A stretch of 10,662 nt of DNA, from positions 1-10,662 of the forward strand of contig JASHYW010000181.1 of assembly GCA_030042885.1 (NCBI GenBank). Direction: 5' to 3'. The DNA is from Streptosporangiaceae bacterium (GTDB lineage: Bacteria > Actinomycetota > Actinomycetes > Streptosporangiales > Streptosporangiaceae). Under the pieces are notes generated by a model, which searched no databases, was not told the DNA's origin, and worked only from the letters and a program-made list of their open reading frames with translations. The stretch's first letter is position 1; every line of letters starts with the position of its first letter. A program made the translations under genes and the position numbers. This document shows, in pieces, positions 2,597 through 10,662 of the stretch.

Positions 2597-3814
2597 GTGA
2601 CATTTGACGTGAGCCGCGTGCGGGCGGCCTACCCCTCTCTCAGCGACGGCTATGCCTACCTTGACGGCGCCGCGGGCACCCAGGTGCCCGCGAGCGTCAT
2701 AGAGGCGATCGCGGATGCCTACCGCTTGGGGATCGGCAACGCGGGGGGCGCGTTTCCCGCCAGCGGGCGTGCCGACGGCATCGTGGCCGAGTGCCGCCGG
2801 GCCCTCGCGGACCTGACCGGCGCCGATCCGCAGGGCGTGATCCTGGGGCCGAACATGACCACGCTCACCTACCGGCTGGCGGACACGCTAGCCCGCCGGT
2901 GGGGGCCGGGGGACGAGGTGGTGGTGTCCCGGCTCGACCACGACGCGAACATCAGGCCCTGGGTGCAGGCCGCCGCGCGAAGCGGGGCCACGGTGCGCTG
3001 GGCTGAAGTCGATATATCGACCGCGGAACTGCCCGCCGCCCAGTACGCCGGCCTGCTGTCCGAGCGCACCCGGCTGGTCGCGGTCACCGCGGCGAGCAAC
3101 ATCGTCGGCACCAGGCCAGACGTGGCGGCCATCGCCGCCGCGGCCCACTCGGTCGGCGCGCTGTGCTACGTGGATGGCGTGCACGCCACCCCGCACGTGC
3201 CGGTGGACGTCCGGTCGCTGGGCGCGGACTTCTACGCCACCAGCGCCTACAAGTGGTCCGGCCCGCACATCGGCACCGTGGTAGCCGATCCGGCGCTGCT
3301 CGAGACCCTGCACCCGGACAAGCTCGCGCCCGCCCCGGCCGGCGTGCCCGGCCGGTTCGAGCGGGGCACCGCGGCGTTCGCCGACCTGGCCGGCGTGGTC
3401 GCGGCCGTCGACCACCTGGCCGGGCTGGACCCCGTCGCCGCGGGCAGCCGACGCGACCGGGTACTGGCCTCCATGGCCGCTGTGGAACGGTACGAAGGGC
3501 AGCTGTTCACGCGCCTGCTCGGCGGGCTGGCCCAGATGCGGCATGTGACCCTCCACGGCAACGCGGCCCGGCGCGCGCCGACCGCCTTCTTCACCGTGAC
3601 CGGGTACACACCTCGTCAGGTCGCGGAGCGGCTGGCGGCCCGCAAGATCAACGTGTGGAACGGCGACAACTACGCGTGGGAGCTGACCGGCGCACTCGGC
3701 CTGCGCGAATCCGGCGGCGGGGTCCGCGCCGGGCTCGTCCATTACAACGACGAAGCCGAGGTGGAGCGGCTGCTGGCCGCGGTCGCAGAACTGGCACCAG
3801 ACGGCGTACCCTGA
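2597..3814 (+). CDS. Cysteine desulfurase-like class V aminotransferase (PLP enzyme)
   Basis: A 405-residue fold-type I PLP enzyme. Lys219 in SAYKWSGPH is the likely Schiff-base lysine. Asp193 in YVDGVHATPH should pair with the PLP pyridine nitrogen, and His114 in RLDHDANIRPW matches the ring-stacking region. The N-terminus (YPSLSDGYAYLDGAAGTQ) and the C-terminal GVRAGLVHYN (375-384) fit the cysteine desulfurase-like (TIGR01976-type) branch. SufS-type enzymes have RAGHHC near that C-terminal site; here there is no Cys, and the only cysteines are at 66 and 190, so classical desulfurase chemistry is unlikely. The GTG start at 2597 has only a weak purine-rich stretch upstream; GTG at 2609 is an in-frame alternative. 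It follows the isomerase gene by 28 bases, an arrangement that suggests a shared pathway whose substrate is unknown. Confidence 0.88.
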   Translation: MTFDVSRVRAAYPSLSDGYAYLDGAAGTQVPASVIEAIADAYRLGIGNAGGAFPASGRADGIVAECRRALADLTGADPQGVILGPNMTTLTYRLADTLARRWGPGDEVVVSRLDHDANIRPWVQAAARSGATVRWAEVDISTAELPAAQYAGLLSERTRLVAVTAASNIVGTRPDVAAIAAAAHSVGALCYVDGVHATPHVPVDVRSLGADFYATSAYKWSGPHIGTVVADPALLETLHPDKLAPAPAGVPGRFERGTAAFADLAGVVAAVDHLAGLDPVAAGSRRDRVLASMAAVERYEGQLFTRLLGGLAQMRHVTLHGNAARRAPTAFFTVTGYTPRQVAERLAARKINVWNGDNYAWELTGALGLRESGGGVRAGLVHYNDEAEVERLLAAVAELAPDGVP

Positions 3815-5092: not shown

Positions 5093-5840
5093 ATGGGGTG
5101 CCGGGTCGGTTCGGTGGTGTGCTGCCGCCCCGAGGGGGTGGTCCACCGGATGTCCCCGTTGGGGAGCTGCTCGGACCTCCACCGCAGGTCTTGCTTCATT
5201 CGGTGGCACTTGGGGTGACCGTTGCACAGGCAGGTCCTGCCGCTGGTTTCGTACGGGGTGTTGTGCTCGAAGTCGCAGCTGGCCGCGGGGCGGCGGCAGG
5301 CCGGCCCGGTGCAGGTGGCGTGCCGCACCTGGGCCAGGTGTCCATGGTGCCGTCCAGCCCGGCCTGCTTCAGCTGCCGGGCCCAGGCGGTGACCCGCTGG
5401 TCGGCGGCCAGCACCTGGGCGGGCGGCAGCTCCCGCCCGGCCAGCGCCGCGTTCCCGCTGTCCTCGGCCCACCGCTCCACCCGCGCGTCCCGGGCCGCCT
5501 GCTCCCGCCGCTTCCTGGCCTTCTCCGGCGCCACCTCCATGACGGCCCGGGCGATCGCGGACCGCAGCCCGCCCGGCGTCAAGGACCCGGCCCGGCCCAG
5601 CACCAGCGCCTCGGCCGCCCGGGCCTCGGCCGGGTCCAGCACCGCGGCGGCCGCCGCGATGATCTCGGCCTTCTCCGCGGTCACGATCCCGGCCCAGAAC
5701 GCCGCCCGGGTGCCGGGCAGCTTGACCTCCAGGTCGTGCGCCAGCCCCAGCAGGTCCTCGGCCGCCCCCCGGGGCTGGCCCAGCGCCGGGGCCAGCTCCG
5801 CGCAGGTGAACTCATCCCACGCCGCCGGCATGCCGGCCAC
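5089..5840 (-). pseudogene. DUF222-HNH endonuclease relic (internal deletion and frameshift)
   Basis: The first part (GTG at 5840 down to about 5340) encodes a DUF222 domain, for example MPAAWDEFTCAELAPALG and the alanine-rich helix KAEIIAAAAAVLDPAEARAA, ending in LDGTMDT at about residue 161-168. Intact relatives continue with a long linker, but here a different frame takes over at about 5337. That frame reads LAQVRHATCTGPACRRP, then the HNH-like core CDFEHNTPYETSGRTCLCNG and ends TTEPTRHPI at TAA. So linker sequence was lost and the junction is out of frame. The last HNH helix (PKCHRMKQ) seems about three residues shorter than the HxxHRLK pattern I know. An in-frame TAG at 5883-5885 cuts the N-terminus. 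DUF222-HNH genes are multi-copy in actinobacteria, including the REP13E12 repeats of Mycobacterium tuberculosis. Confidence 0.8.
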
Positions 5841-7166: not shown

Positions 7167-9947
7167 ATGCGGAGCATGAGGCGTGCGGGCGGTGGGTACC
7201 GGCTGGACTTCTGGGTGCGGCATCGGCCGGGCAGCGCCTCTGAGCGGCCGGCCGCAGCGGGACTGGCCGGGCGAGGGGTGCTGCCGACGGCGCATCGGGC
7301 CATTGTGTGCGTGGATGTCGAGGAGTTCGGCGACCAGCGCCGGACCAATGCCGATCAGGTTGCGGTCCGTGATGGTCTGTACGGCGCGCTCGGCAAGGCA
7401 TTCGCCAGATCGGGGGTGAGCTGGGAGGACTGCTATCGCGAGGACCGCGGTGACGGGGTGCTGGTGCTGGTGCGGCCCGAGGTGCCGAAGACCGTCCTGG
7501 CAGCGCGGGTTCCCCTCGAACTGGCCGCGGCTCTGGTCAGGCACAACCGGGCACACGGGGGTGAGGCGCGGATCCGGCTGCGGATGGCGGTCCACGCTGG
7601 GGAGATTGTCTACGATCGGCACGGGGTGGCGGGCACGGCGATAAACCACGCCTTCCGGCTGCTGGAGGCCGTGGCCGTCAAGGATGCGCTGGGCAGCTCA
7701 CAGGGTGTCCTCGCGGTCATCGTCTCAAGATGGTTCTTCGATGAAGTCGTACGCCACGACCCGGCGTGCGGGCCGGCCTCGTACCGGCAGGTCCAGGTGT
7801 CGGTCAAGGAGACCGAGGACAGCGCGTGGGTCTGCCTGCCCGACAACCCGTACCCGCCGGAAGCGGGAGCCTGGCTCCCGCCAGTGCCGGAGGCGGCAGC
7901 GCCCCGTCAGCTGCCCGCCGCTGTCTGCGGCTTCGCGGGCCGCGCTGTTGAACTGAGCGCGCTCAGCCGACTGCTGGACCAGGCACCTGGGACAGGAGGC
8001 ACGGTGGTGATCTCGGCGATCGGCGGGACGGCCGGGGTCGGCAAGACCGCGCTGGCGGTCACGTGGGCGCATCAGGTTGCCGACCGGTTCCCTGACGGGC
8101 AGCTGTACGTGAACCTGCGGGGGTTCGATCCGGTCGGGGCGCCGATGACCCCGGCCGAGGCGATCCGGGGCTTCCTGGACGCCTTCGAGGTGCCGGCGGA
8201 GCGGATCCCGGTCAGCCTAGATGCCCAGGCGGCGTTGTACCGCAGCCTGCTGGCCGGGCGGCGGGTGCTGGTCGTGCTGGACAACGCCCGGGACGTCGGC
8301 CAGGTCCGGCCGTTGCTGCCCGGCTCGCCGGGCTGTTTGGTGGTTATCACTAGCCGTAACCAGCTCACCAGCCTGATTGCCGCCGAGTCGGCTCATTCGA
8401 TGACGCTGGACCTGCTGACCACCGCCGAAGCCCGGCTGCTCCTGTCCCACCGGCTCGGCCCGGACCGGGTGGCCACGGAGCCGCTGGCGGCGGAGGAGAT
8501 CATCACCTTGTGCGCGCGGCTGCCGCTAGCGCTTGCCATCGTGGCCGCCCGCGCGGTCACTCATCCCGGGTTCCCGCTGGCGGCGCTGGCCGGCGAGCTC
8601 CGCGACGCCCACGGGAGCCTGAACGCCTTCCATGGCGGGGACACCGCAGCCGATGCGCGGGCGGTGTTCTCCTGGTCCTACCAGCAGCTCAGCTCGCAGG
8701 CCGCCCGGCTGTTCCAGCTACTGGGCCTGCACCCCGGGCCCGACACCACCGCCTACGCCGCTGCCAGCCTGTCCGCACTGTCCCCGGATCAGGCGCGCAG
8801 CCTGCTGACCGAGCTGGCACAGGCGCATCTGGTCACCGAGCGCACCCCCGGCCGGTTCGCCTTCCACGACCTGCTGCGTGCCTACGCCATCGAGCAAGCC
8901 CACGCTCACGAGACCGATGATGAGCAGAACGCAGCCATGAGCCGGGTACTCGATCACTATCTGCACAGTGCGCAAGCCGCCTCCCTCCGGCTTCATCCGC
9001 GGATCAGGCCCCTGACCGTTCCGCCGCCCCCACCCGGCGTGCTGCCCGAGGATCCGCCCGACTTCGCCGCGGCGTGGGCCTGGTTCGACGCCGAGCACCC
9101 AGTGCTGCTCGCCGCCATCGATCAGGCAGCCGCCCTCGCACAGGACACCCGCGCGTGGCAGCTCGCCTGGACGCTCACGGACTTTCTGGACCGGCAGGGG
9201 CGATGGCATGACTGGGCAGCGACCCAGCACACCGCCCTGAACGCCGCCCGACGCCATAACGACCGGTCAGGGCAGGCCCACGCGCATACGGTCATCGGCC
9301 TCACATACCGGCGGCTCGGCCGTTACCAGCAGGCTCACACCCACCTTCAACAGGCACTAGACCAGTTCGGGGAACTGGGCGACCGGCCGGGCCAAGGCGA
9401 AGCGCACACCATGCTAGGCGGCGTCCTTCTACGCCAGAACCGTCTCACAGATGCGCTACTGCATCATCAGCAGGCTCTCACCTTGTTCCGCGCCGCCGGT
9501 GACCGCTGGGGCCAAGGGAGAGCCCTCAACTACGCGGGCTGGGTTCACGCCCTGCTCGGAGACCACCACGAAGCTCTCGCTCACTGCGAGCAGGCGCTGG
9601 ACCTGAACCGGGAAGCGGGCGACCGCTATGGCGAGACTCAAACCCTTGCCACCCTCGGCTATGCCCACGGCCACCTAGGTAACTATCAGCAGTCAGCCGA
9701 CTACTGTCAAAAGTCGCTCGCCTTGTGCCGGGAAGTGCGGAACCGCTACATGATGGCCCTGGCTCTTGGCCACCTCGGCGATGCGCTCGATGCCGCCGGT
9801 AACCAGACTGCCGCCCGAGCCGCGTGGCGGCAGGCACTGGACACCCTCGACCACCTCGGCCTCGTCATCCCGTCGGCTCCGGGTCCCGGTGACCCGGACA
9901 CCGCCCAGATCCGCGCCAAACTGGCCCGCCAGAATGGCCTTCTGTAG
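7167..9947 (+). CDS. Class III nucleotidyl cyclase-like / NB-ARC STAND ATPase / TPR fusion protein
   Basis: A 926-residue cytosolic protein. Residues about 43-225 form a class III cyclase homology domain: metal Asp50 (CVDVEEFG), metal Asp96 (RGDGVLVLV), then RMAVHAGEI and GTAINHAFRLLE with the transition-state pair Asn160 and Arg164. Residues about 252-480 are an NB-ARC NTPase: P-loop GTAGVGKT (287-294), Walker B VLVVLDN (367-373), the ITSR segment (394-397) and GLPL-like RLPLAL (451-456). A winged-helix part ends in FHDLLRAYA (566-574), the MHD equivalent. After a spacer come five TPR units starting near 702, 742, 782, 822 and 862. No transmembrane or DNA-binding domain is seen. STAND proteins are ATP-driven switches, with TPRs sensing or binding partners; here the cyclase would be the output, or a sensor. 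The start is uncertain: ATG at 7167 has no Shine-Dalgarno, and ATG at 7176 is an alternative. Confidence 0.88.
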   Translation: MRSMRRAGGGYRLDFWVRHRPGSASERPAAAGLAGRGVLPTAHRAIVCVDVEEFGDQRRTNADQVAVRDGLYGALGKAFARSGVSWEDCYREDRGDGVLVLVRPEVPKTVLAARVPLELAAALVRHNRAHGGEARIRLRMAVHAGEIVYDRHGVAGTAINHAFRLLEAVAVKDALGSSQGVLAVIVSRWFFDEVVRHDPACGPASYRQVQVSVKETEDSAWVCLPDNPYPPEAGAWLPPVPEAAAPRQLPAAVCGFAGRAVELSALSRLLDQAPGTGGTVVISAIGGTAGVGKTALAVTWAHQVADRFPDGQLYVNLRGFDPVGAPMTPAEAIRGFLDAFEVPAERIPVSLDAQAALYRSLLAGRRVLVVLDNARDVGQVRPLLPGSPGCLVVITSRNQLTSLIAAESAHSMTLDLLTTAEARLLLSHRLGPDRVATEPLAAEEIITLCARLPLALAIVAARAVTHPGFPLAALAGELRDAHGSLNAFHGGDTAADARAVFSWSYQQLSSQAARLFQLLGLHPGPDTTAYAAASLSALSPDQARSLLTELAQAHLVTERTPGRFAFHDLLRAYAIEQAHAHETDDEQNAAMSRVLDHYLHSAQAASLRLHPRIRPLTVPPPPPGVLPEDPPDFAAAWAWFDAEHPVLLAAIDQAAALAQDTRAWQLAWTLTDFLDRQGRWHDWAATQHTALNAARRHNDRSGQAHAHTVIGLTYRRLGRYQQAHTHLQQALDQFGELGDRPGQGEAHTMLGGVLLRQNRLTDALLHHQQALTLFRAAGDRWGQGRALNYAGWVHALLGDHHEALAHCEQALDLNREAGDRYGETQTLATLGYAHGHLGNYQQSADYCQKSLALCREVRNRYMMALALGHLGDALDAAGNQTAARAAWRQALDTLDHLGLVIPSAPGPGDPDTAQIRAKLARQNGLL

Positions 9948-10023
9948 TACGGCGATGCCACGCCTGGGTCAGTATTCACCTGCCGTCGACAAGAACGGAT
10001 GATCTGCGCGCATGGGGCTAACA

Positions 10024-10054
10024 CATTCCTATTGCTTCAGCAGGCATTCCTATT
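10024..10054. repeat. Two 10-bp direct repeats, 21-bp period
   Basis: CATTCCTATT occurs at 10024-10033 and 10045-10054 without mismatch. The spacing equals two helical turns, which fits a tandem protein-binding site, but no partner is identified. Confidence 0.7.
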
Positions 10055-10161
10055 CGGCGATCTGTAATTGTTCGAGGTAATTAAAATATGCCCGCTCGTC
10101 ACGTTATGCGACCGCGAAGAGCGCTGACCGAGACGGTCGTCTACGTCCGAGACCATCATCG

Positions 10162-10203
10162 CCAGCAAGATAATACAGCCCAGTTCACCCGCATCTTTGC
10201 TGG
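10162..10203. other. Inverted repeat / hairpin A
   Basis: CCAGCAAGAT (10162-10171) pairs with ATCTTTGCTGG (10193-10203) with one bulged T and a 21-base loop. No T-run follows on the plus strand, so it does not look like a simple intrinsic terminator. Confidence 0.6.
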
Positions 10204-10242
10204 TCACTAGACTTATACGGTCATGGCAGTAGTGGTGCCGCC

Positions 10243-10306
10243 GTGTACCGGGTAGTGCCGTCTTGTTCGGGTTATCGGTGTGTTAATCTCTACTGCGACC
10301 CGAACT
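10243..10306 (+). repeat. Diverged 64-bp direct repeat, copy 1
   Basis: Aligned without gaps to 10457-10520 (offset 214), 44 of 64 bases agree, and 32 of the first 42. The shared core includes TGCCGT, CGTGTT-like and GACCCG blocks. It contains both arms of the hairpin at 10265-10305. Confidence 0.6.
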
Positions 10307-10313
10307 CCGGCAC
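10255..10313 (+). other. Two-tier inverted repeat / hairpin B (repeat copy 1)
   Basis: Outer arms GTGCCG (10255-10260) and CGGCAC (10308-10313) and inner arms GTTCGGGT (10265-10272) and ACCCGAAC (10298-10305) are both perfect complements. A 4/2-base internal loop separates the tiers, and the terminal loop is 25 bases. This looks like a stable RNA or cruciform element. Confidence 0.65.
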
Positions 10314-10387
10314 AACAGATTATGCTATTGAGCTTCCGCTTTTCAGAAGGTCTGTCGCTCCCGATGCCACCGGGTAAGTATCGATCA

Positions 10388-10430
10388 GTCAGCCCAGCTA
10401 GAGCGCATCCATCGTGGTAGTTGGGCTGAC
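10388..10430. other. 13-bp stem hairpin C
   Basis: GTCAGCCCAGCTA (10388-10400) pairs with TAGTTGGGCTGAC (10418-10430): 12 Watson-Crick pairs and one G-T, around a 17-base loop. TATTTT follows about 6 bases later, so it could terminate plus-strand transcription, though the gap is longer than usual. It lies midway between the two copies of the 64-bp repeat. Confidence 0.65.
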
Positions 10431-10456
10431 ACGACTATTTTAACGCTGGCGCCATC

Positions 10457-10520
10457 GTGTGCCGGAGAATGCCGTTTTGTCCGTGTTACGGGCGTGTTGG
10501 ACGCATCCCGGACCCGGACT
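10457..10520 (+). repeat. Diverged 64-bp direct repeat, copy 2
   Basis: Counterpart of 10243-10306. The inner stem is kept as GTCCGTGT (10479-10486) with ACCCGGAC (10512-10519): relative to copy 1 one T-A pair is now C-G, while one G-C pair became a T-C mismatch. The outer arms of copy 1 are not conserved here. Confidence 0.6.
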
Positions 10521-10662
10521 TGTGTTGGTCTTGTGTGTGCCGACCGAAGACCGGCTGCCGCCGGCTACCCGCTGGCCTGCCAGCCATCTCGTTACCCCTC
10601 GGCCAGGCCGGGAATGACCCACTGTGACGAACAAAGCATGCGCTGACGGATCAAAAGCACCC

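Follow-up and report, generated by a model that had tools for sequence, protein, structure and literature searches.

The stretch of DNA analysed here (the window, 10,662 nucleotides from a contig of a Streptosporangiaceae bacterium) carries a gene for a 926-residue protein in which a class III nucleotidyl cyclase domain is followed by an NB-ARC-type STAND module and an array of TPRs (Table 1). Its neighbours include genes for an ABC exporter, a maleylpyruvate-isomerase-like protein, a cysteine desulfurase-like protein, a DUF6412 protein and a YidC-like protein, together with a DUF222 remnant. DUF222 is usually part of HNH-endonuclease-type proteins. A sample of 296 genomes from a single class gave best matches to the desulfurase-like protein at 72% and 69% identity and thus includes no close relative of the host. 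The GC content drops from about 0.70 to about 0.60 (9501-10500), the stretch from 9950 to 10662 contains no open reading frame of at least 80 amino acids lying wholly inside it, no repeats of at least 14 bases occur in 9900-10662, and the Rfam search gave no match at gathering score; the stretch 9950-10662 is possibly an insertion boundary. The initial annotation had expected a cyclic-nucleotide effector nearby and saw none in the window, and a six-frame scan agrees, with neither Crp nor PycTM recovered; neither a PycTM nor a PycTIR effector was found in the window, which stops 715 bases past the gene.

Table 1. Features of the cyclase-STAND-TPR gene and of two neighbouring genes, in window coordinates
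Feature	Position	Strand	Remarks
Cysteine desulfurase-like protein (TIGR01976)	2597..3814	+	
DUF222 remnant	5196..5840	-	Between YidC-like and cyclase genes
CDS, cyclase-STAND-TPR protein, 926 aa	7167..9947	+	Listed start ATG 7167; GTG 7278 may be the true one
Class III nucleotidyl cyclase domain	7287..7835	+	Residues 41-223
D50, first metal Asp	7314..7316	+	D in 143/145 members with this column filled
E92, where adenylyl cyclases have their base-specifying Lys	7440..7442	+	E in 65, Q in 51 of 148 members
D96, second metal Asp	7452..7454	+	D in 147/148 members
G153, second base-specifying position	7623..7625	+	G in 133/143 members; Ma1120 has Asp and Cya2 has Gly here
N160, transition-state Asn position	7644..7646	+	N in 47/148 members, 15/20 STAND-fused
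F163-R164	7653..7658	+	R164, transition-state Arg (143/147 members); F163 at the Cya2 Tyr position
NB-ARC NTPase core of the STAND module	7944..8561	+	Residues ~260-465
P-loop GTAGVGKT	8025..8048	+	Residues 287-294
Walker B strand, D372 at its end	8265..8288	+	From sequence and predicted structure
HDL, MHD-like motif	8865..8873	+	Residues 567-569
TPR array, helix pairs of ~40 residues	9204..9854	+	Residues ~680-896, from Pfam and predicted structure

That the open reading frame is a genuine gene is supported by its codon-position GC bias (0.77, 0.51 and 0.83 at positions 1, 2 and 3) and by the recurrence of the same architecture in other genomes. Translation may start at GTG 7278 instead of ATG 7167, because residues 1-38 are disordered in the predicted structure (pLDDT about 30), the N-termini of relatives fall near this GTG codon and a GAGGG precedes it; ATG 7176 is an additional candidate. 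The N-terminal domain has a cyclase fold in the predicted monomer structure, and the residues on which the initial annotation based its claim of a catalytic cyclase, D50 and D96 (46 apart), N160 and R164, are present and map to the metal Asp pair and the Asn and Arg positions when a family profile is aligned to solved cyclases. The cyclase homology fold, both metal Asp residues and the Asn-Arg pair are as expected of class III members. The domain escapes standard annotation because Pfam does not call it, either in the window protein or in its family. The P-loop, the Walker B strand and the MHD-like motif proposed for the central part are likewise in place and, with a helical and winged-helix region and C-terminal repeats, they support its reading as a STAND switch, whose core is Apaf-1-like. 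The repeats that follow are TPRs, with the best Pfam stretches from residue 704 on; they resemble the peptide-binding Rap and NprR proteins, which is at most a hint at the ligand. Across 15 fused proteins aligned over their full length (from the 17 with an N-terminal cyclase), K293 and D372 are invariant and H567, D568 and L569 nearly so, and D50, D96 and R164 are also invariant.

Relatives of the cyclase domain were drawn from 11 plasmid records, one genome-contig scan (3 relatives) and genome samples. They occur in at least 26 of 148 class-wide genomes (E 1e-8), at least 32 of 81 genomes of one order and at least 25 of 80 genomes of one family (E 1e-20), these counts being lower bounds since the surveys scored 22 to 41 candidates per genome; the three genomes hit first (G001, G002 and G003) hold 12, 15 and 18 copies of the domain. 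Phage records contained no relative at E 1e-5, and two 13-residue matches in viral contigs were discarded. Residue statistics were computed on 148 members (nr90, window included, from 234 domain hits). Of the 109 full-length relatives with context, 101 were scanned for Pfam domains (eight among the longest, including five STAND-fused ones, were omitted for their size); the domains comprised NB-ARC (15), EAD2 (14), EAD1 (12), TIR_2 (11), VMAP-M0 (7), VMAP-C (6) and cNMP_binding (6), counts that may overlap. The three-domain architecture is present in other genomes: a STAND part like that of the window protein occurs in 20 of 109 context genes, 17 of which have the cyclase on its N-terminal side and 3 on its C-terminal side. 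Genes are called 'STAND-fused' here if they match a profile built up from the STAND part of the window protein; two further genes (L155 and L203) have a P-loop motif and no match to this profile. The five tree rows nearest the window are all STAND-fused and all keep N160. The fused label changes 10 times on the best tree, but only 2 changes are forced by supported branches, so that repeated fusion of cyclase and STAND parts, as opposed to a single origin, is no more than likely. One relative (L154:4252-7926, minus strand) has tandem cyclase domains ahead of NB-ARC and TPRs in a single 1224-residue protein; its first cyclase domain is degenerate and its second has D-D-N-R at the catalytic positions, possibly a built-in pseudo-heterodimer. 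On a Streptomyces plasmid (L007:1525-6591, plus strand), a 1688-residue SAV_2336-type protein beside a MoxR ATPase ends in a divergent cyclase domain (E-D-V-R).

An effector nearby, absent from the window, is found beside many relatives. A Crp-like gene occupies 16 of 208 slots adjacent to a cyclase versus 3 of 803 farther slots (Fisher p 3e-9), a count in which both query Crps were themselves cyclase neighbours and which left out six loci with no called cyclase gene, two of which (L202 and L204) have a Crp beside the cyclase. In an independent count over 45 whole genomes, using only cyclase places above the survey cut-offs, 23 of the best 150 PF00027 places (351 in all) are no more than 2 kb away from a cyclase, four of the 23 in the cyclase's own frame (fusions), where 0.37 would be expected, and 7 of 21 PF18967 (PycTM) places lie within 8 kb of one, where 0.18 would be expected. 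Family members also lie near PycTM genes on two plasmids (L009 and L008). Several of the linked loci are orthologous and thus do not represent independent events, and gene calls followed a simple codon-composition rule, which makes some starts and neighbours uncertain. A 181-residue protein at a further locus (L229) was dropped as a PycTM candidate, Pfam giving no support.

Two kinds of gene arrangement stand out among these loci. In two genomes (loci L159 and L164, about 75% identical to each other), a divergent Crp with cNMP_binding and HTH domains is followed by a cyclase with D-D-N-R, E-G-F and a C-terminal EAD2 (Pfam E 1e-23 and 1e-22) and by an EAD2-TPR protein that matches the STAND profile with no NB-ARC call; in a third genome (L231), Crp and STAND-like genes accompany a cyclase that is incomplete. 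Judged by their domains, these split cassettes supply in trans the kinds of parts that the window protein joins in cis, with a putative receptor adjoining. In L159, Pfam calls no NB-ARC in the STAND-like protein (858 residues) and no canonical P-loop was noted in it, so the split form may not be ATP-driven. In the second arrangement, found at 11 loci (L184, L199, L200, L204, L210, L212, L216, L218, L220, L223 and L224), the cyclase has a neighbour of 680-1162 residues from one similarity cluster; four such proteins (L210, L212, L220 and L223) gave no match in a Pfam scan. The order is Crp, cyclase, cluster protein and PycTM in L212 and L223, and equal in L226, with a 698-residue HEAT-repeat protein in place of the cluster protein. 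A second protein of 324-593 residues is often present in these cassettes (10 loci). This recurrent actinomycete cassette of Crp, cyclase and a large protein that mostly lacks Pfam matches, with PycTM in some loci, looks like an undescribed Pycsar-like system. A Crp-like gene is found among the called genes of 1 of the 20 STAND-fused loci (L150), so the linkage evidence stems from other branches of the family, and the STAND-fused genes look like orphans.

Cyclic-nucleotide output, as proposed initially, is plausible from the predicted fold and active-site positions, and the window protein is probably an active cyclase. Class III cyclases act as dimers. We propose, with a probability of roughly 0.6, that the window protein acts as a class III nucleotidyl cyclase gated by its STAND module. 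In this model, the TPRs would sense a ligand or partner, upon which the AfsR/Apaf-1-type NB-ARC module would exchange nucleotide and oligomerise; assembly would pair the N-terminal cyclase domains as dimers and complete their shared active sites, and the paired domains would make a 3',5'-cyclic nucleotide. The receptor of this messenger would be encoded at another place in the genome and would most likely be a cNMP-binding regulator of the Crp type. Assembly on a signal is a property of STAND proteins described in the available part of Kaur et al. (PMC7159879).

Several other readings of the protein were weighed. The one that survives best overlaps with the STAND-gated cyclase in mechanism and differs in purpose: the protein would control secondary metabolism or development in the manner of AfsR, its cyclase making cAMP or cGMP for ends other than defence. 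It draws on the closest match of the STAND-TPR part, which is to AfsR (E 1.4e-87) and also to HaaT, on the PADLOC models, which match the window protein only with a generic TPR, and on the neighbours scanned in the window, which include no defence gene. The N-terminus of AfsR is a SARP transcription-factor region, whereas the window protein has its cyclase there; neither SARP or other DNA-binding domains nor BTAD gave a match in it, and its alignment to the AfsR model starts only at model position 281. Many relatives, moreover, carry the EAD, TIR and VMAP conflict modules counted above. We therefore regard a purpose in metabolism or development as doubtful, if a serious contender, and a role of the window protein in stress or phage response may be envisaged.

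A second possibility is a pseudo-cyclase: the domain would form no product and, by binding a cyclic nucleotide or metal-NTP, would provide the STAND switch with an allosteric sensor or a head for dimerisation. The N160 column is what suggests it: the residue is replaced in 101 of the 148 members, mostly by V (42), I (24), D (13) and T (11), and the column ranks 123 of 179 in conservation. The concern that relatives might routinely lack the active-site residues was therefore borne out for N160, but not for D50, D96 and R164, whose columns rank with the most conserved ones. The available text of Kaur et al. (PMC7159879) describes several cyclase domains fused to vWA as inactive and proposes nucleotide binding for them. 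However, Ma1120, an active adenylyl cyclase, naturally has Ala at the transition-state Asn position, and replacing this Ala by Asn reduced its adenylyl activity and left it with no guanylyl activity, according to the accessible part of that study (PMC4215837); loss of N160 alone thus does not mean inactivity. A dead family, considered on account of the N160 losses, was set aside given Ma1120 and the near-invariant metal Asp pair. In addition, Asn is kept in 15 of 20 STAND-fused versus 26 of 89 other members (Fisher p 2e-4 with kinship ignored; only two supported pairs remain when kinship is taken into account), five STAND-fused members lacking it, and cNMP receptors adjoin the cyclase family. 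A pseudo-cyclase is hence unlikely.

Returning to the STAND-gated cyclase, its product can be guessed at from the base-specifying positions. E-G-F is the commonest base triple of the cyclase family (39 of 148 members), and in a profile alignment that is gap-free around R164 the residues E92, G153 and F163 correspond to Ma1120 positions 101, 157 and 167. Cya2 presumably has Glu at the corresponding base-specifying position. In Ma1120, K-D-A at the three positions goes with ATP, K101E/D157G gave the best guanylyl activity, and the triple mutant (E-G-Y, with Gly and Tyr as in Cya2) made equal use of ATP and GTP, as far as the accessible text describes (PMC4215837). The residues of the window cyclase, which has E-G-F versus the E-G-Y of this mutant, agree with the positions by which Ma1120 was shifted towards GTP use. 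Because of this alignment and the frequency of the triple in the family, our best guess is that the cyclase uses GTP, or both GTP and ATP, and so gives a guanylyl or a mixed product, which is more likely than a pyrimidine one. A Pycsar pyrimidine cyclase coupled to STAND sensing, with cCMP or cUMP as its product, would fit the PycTM linkage in genomes and on plasmids, but is improbable, since the window protein has C48/E92/R94 and not the pocket F100/R142/Q144 of EaPycC (-2, -4 and -2 from D102/D146 by offsets computed here from the available part of PMC11224242; one clade was compared, and other PycC clades differ), position 48 is aromatic in 0 of 9 PycTM-linked members compared and F in 6 of 148 members, and no effector was found in the window, up to its end 715 bases after the gene.

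If the STAND-gated cyclase is correct, it offers a defined, testable route from STAND sensing to a second messenger in actinomycetes, in which a module type shared with immune and antibiotic-control proteins is joined to a predicted cyclase head. It also draws attention to a cyclase family that has no Pfam model, although three genomes carry between 12 and 18 copies apiece. More tentatively, and at somewhat less than even odds, the family might form an unannotated cNMP alarm network in large actinomycete genomes, an expanded set of cyclases triggered by STAND modules in cis or via EAD2 pairs in trans and having several outputs. With up to 18 cyclase copies per genome, the network would have Crp-like regulators, PycTM membrane effectors and cNMP-domain fusions as outputs; the window protein would be its one-gene cis form and would broadcast to receptors used in common, as a bacterial counterpart to those NLR sensors whose effector head produces a nucleotide signal. 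Because the split cassettes hold maker, partner and receptor in three adjacent genes, AfsR-like STAND sensing and function may be approachable by a simple cyclic-nucleotide readout.

Among known proteins, the STAND part is AfsR-like: NB-ARC and a helical C-terminal part align with AfsR (PDB 8k60, 8jke) over residues 243-818. Ma1120 and Cya2 are the closest folds to the cyclase domain, tied within about 1 Z with many others; they share about 20% identity with it and have no STAND part. Cyclase-ATPase-LuxR proteins are known in mycobacteria (Mclx: Rv0386, Rv1358 and Rv2488c), where Mclx1 has adenylyl cyclase activity with a guanylyl side activity of about 20%, and some members lack active-site residues, as given in the accessible sections of that work (PMC4452763). 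By this published description, and not by sequence, they resemble the window protein in having an N-terminal class III cyclase followed by AAA/NB-ARC; however, they end in a LuxR HTH, whereas the window protein ends in TPRs with no HTH match and has an AfsR-like STAND part. For vWA-MoxR and related systems, Kaur et al. (2020; available part of PMC7159879) put forward cNMP cyclases as predicted messenger-making modules, and they observed regulators of the CRP type in the vicinity of peptide systems with AP-ATPases; AP-ATPases with TPRs and CRP-like regulators have been linked to EAD/VMAP conflict systems (PMC7159879 and, from 2021, PMC8195603, likewise as available). The cyclase family shares EAD1, EAD2, VMAP and TIR domains with these systems, whereas EAD, VMAP and vWA gave no match in the window protein or in the neighbours scanned. 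A cis cyclase-NB-ARC-TPR fusion is not named in the accessible portions of Kaur et al. (PMC7159879, PMC8195603), and a literature search covering few subscription journals returned no cyclase-NB-ARC-TPR protein of this family beyond the related systems named here. The joining of a STAND or other ATPase to a cyclase is therefore not a new idea, since the Mclx proteins are known and cNMP messenger modules had been predicted; what is added here, as far as our searches tell, is the cis form with cyclase, AfsR-like STAND module and TPRs, and a Pfam-invisible cyclase family with residue statistics and a counted linkage to Crp and PycTM genes.
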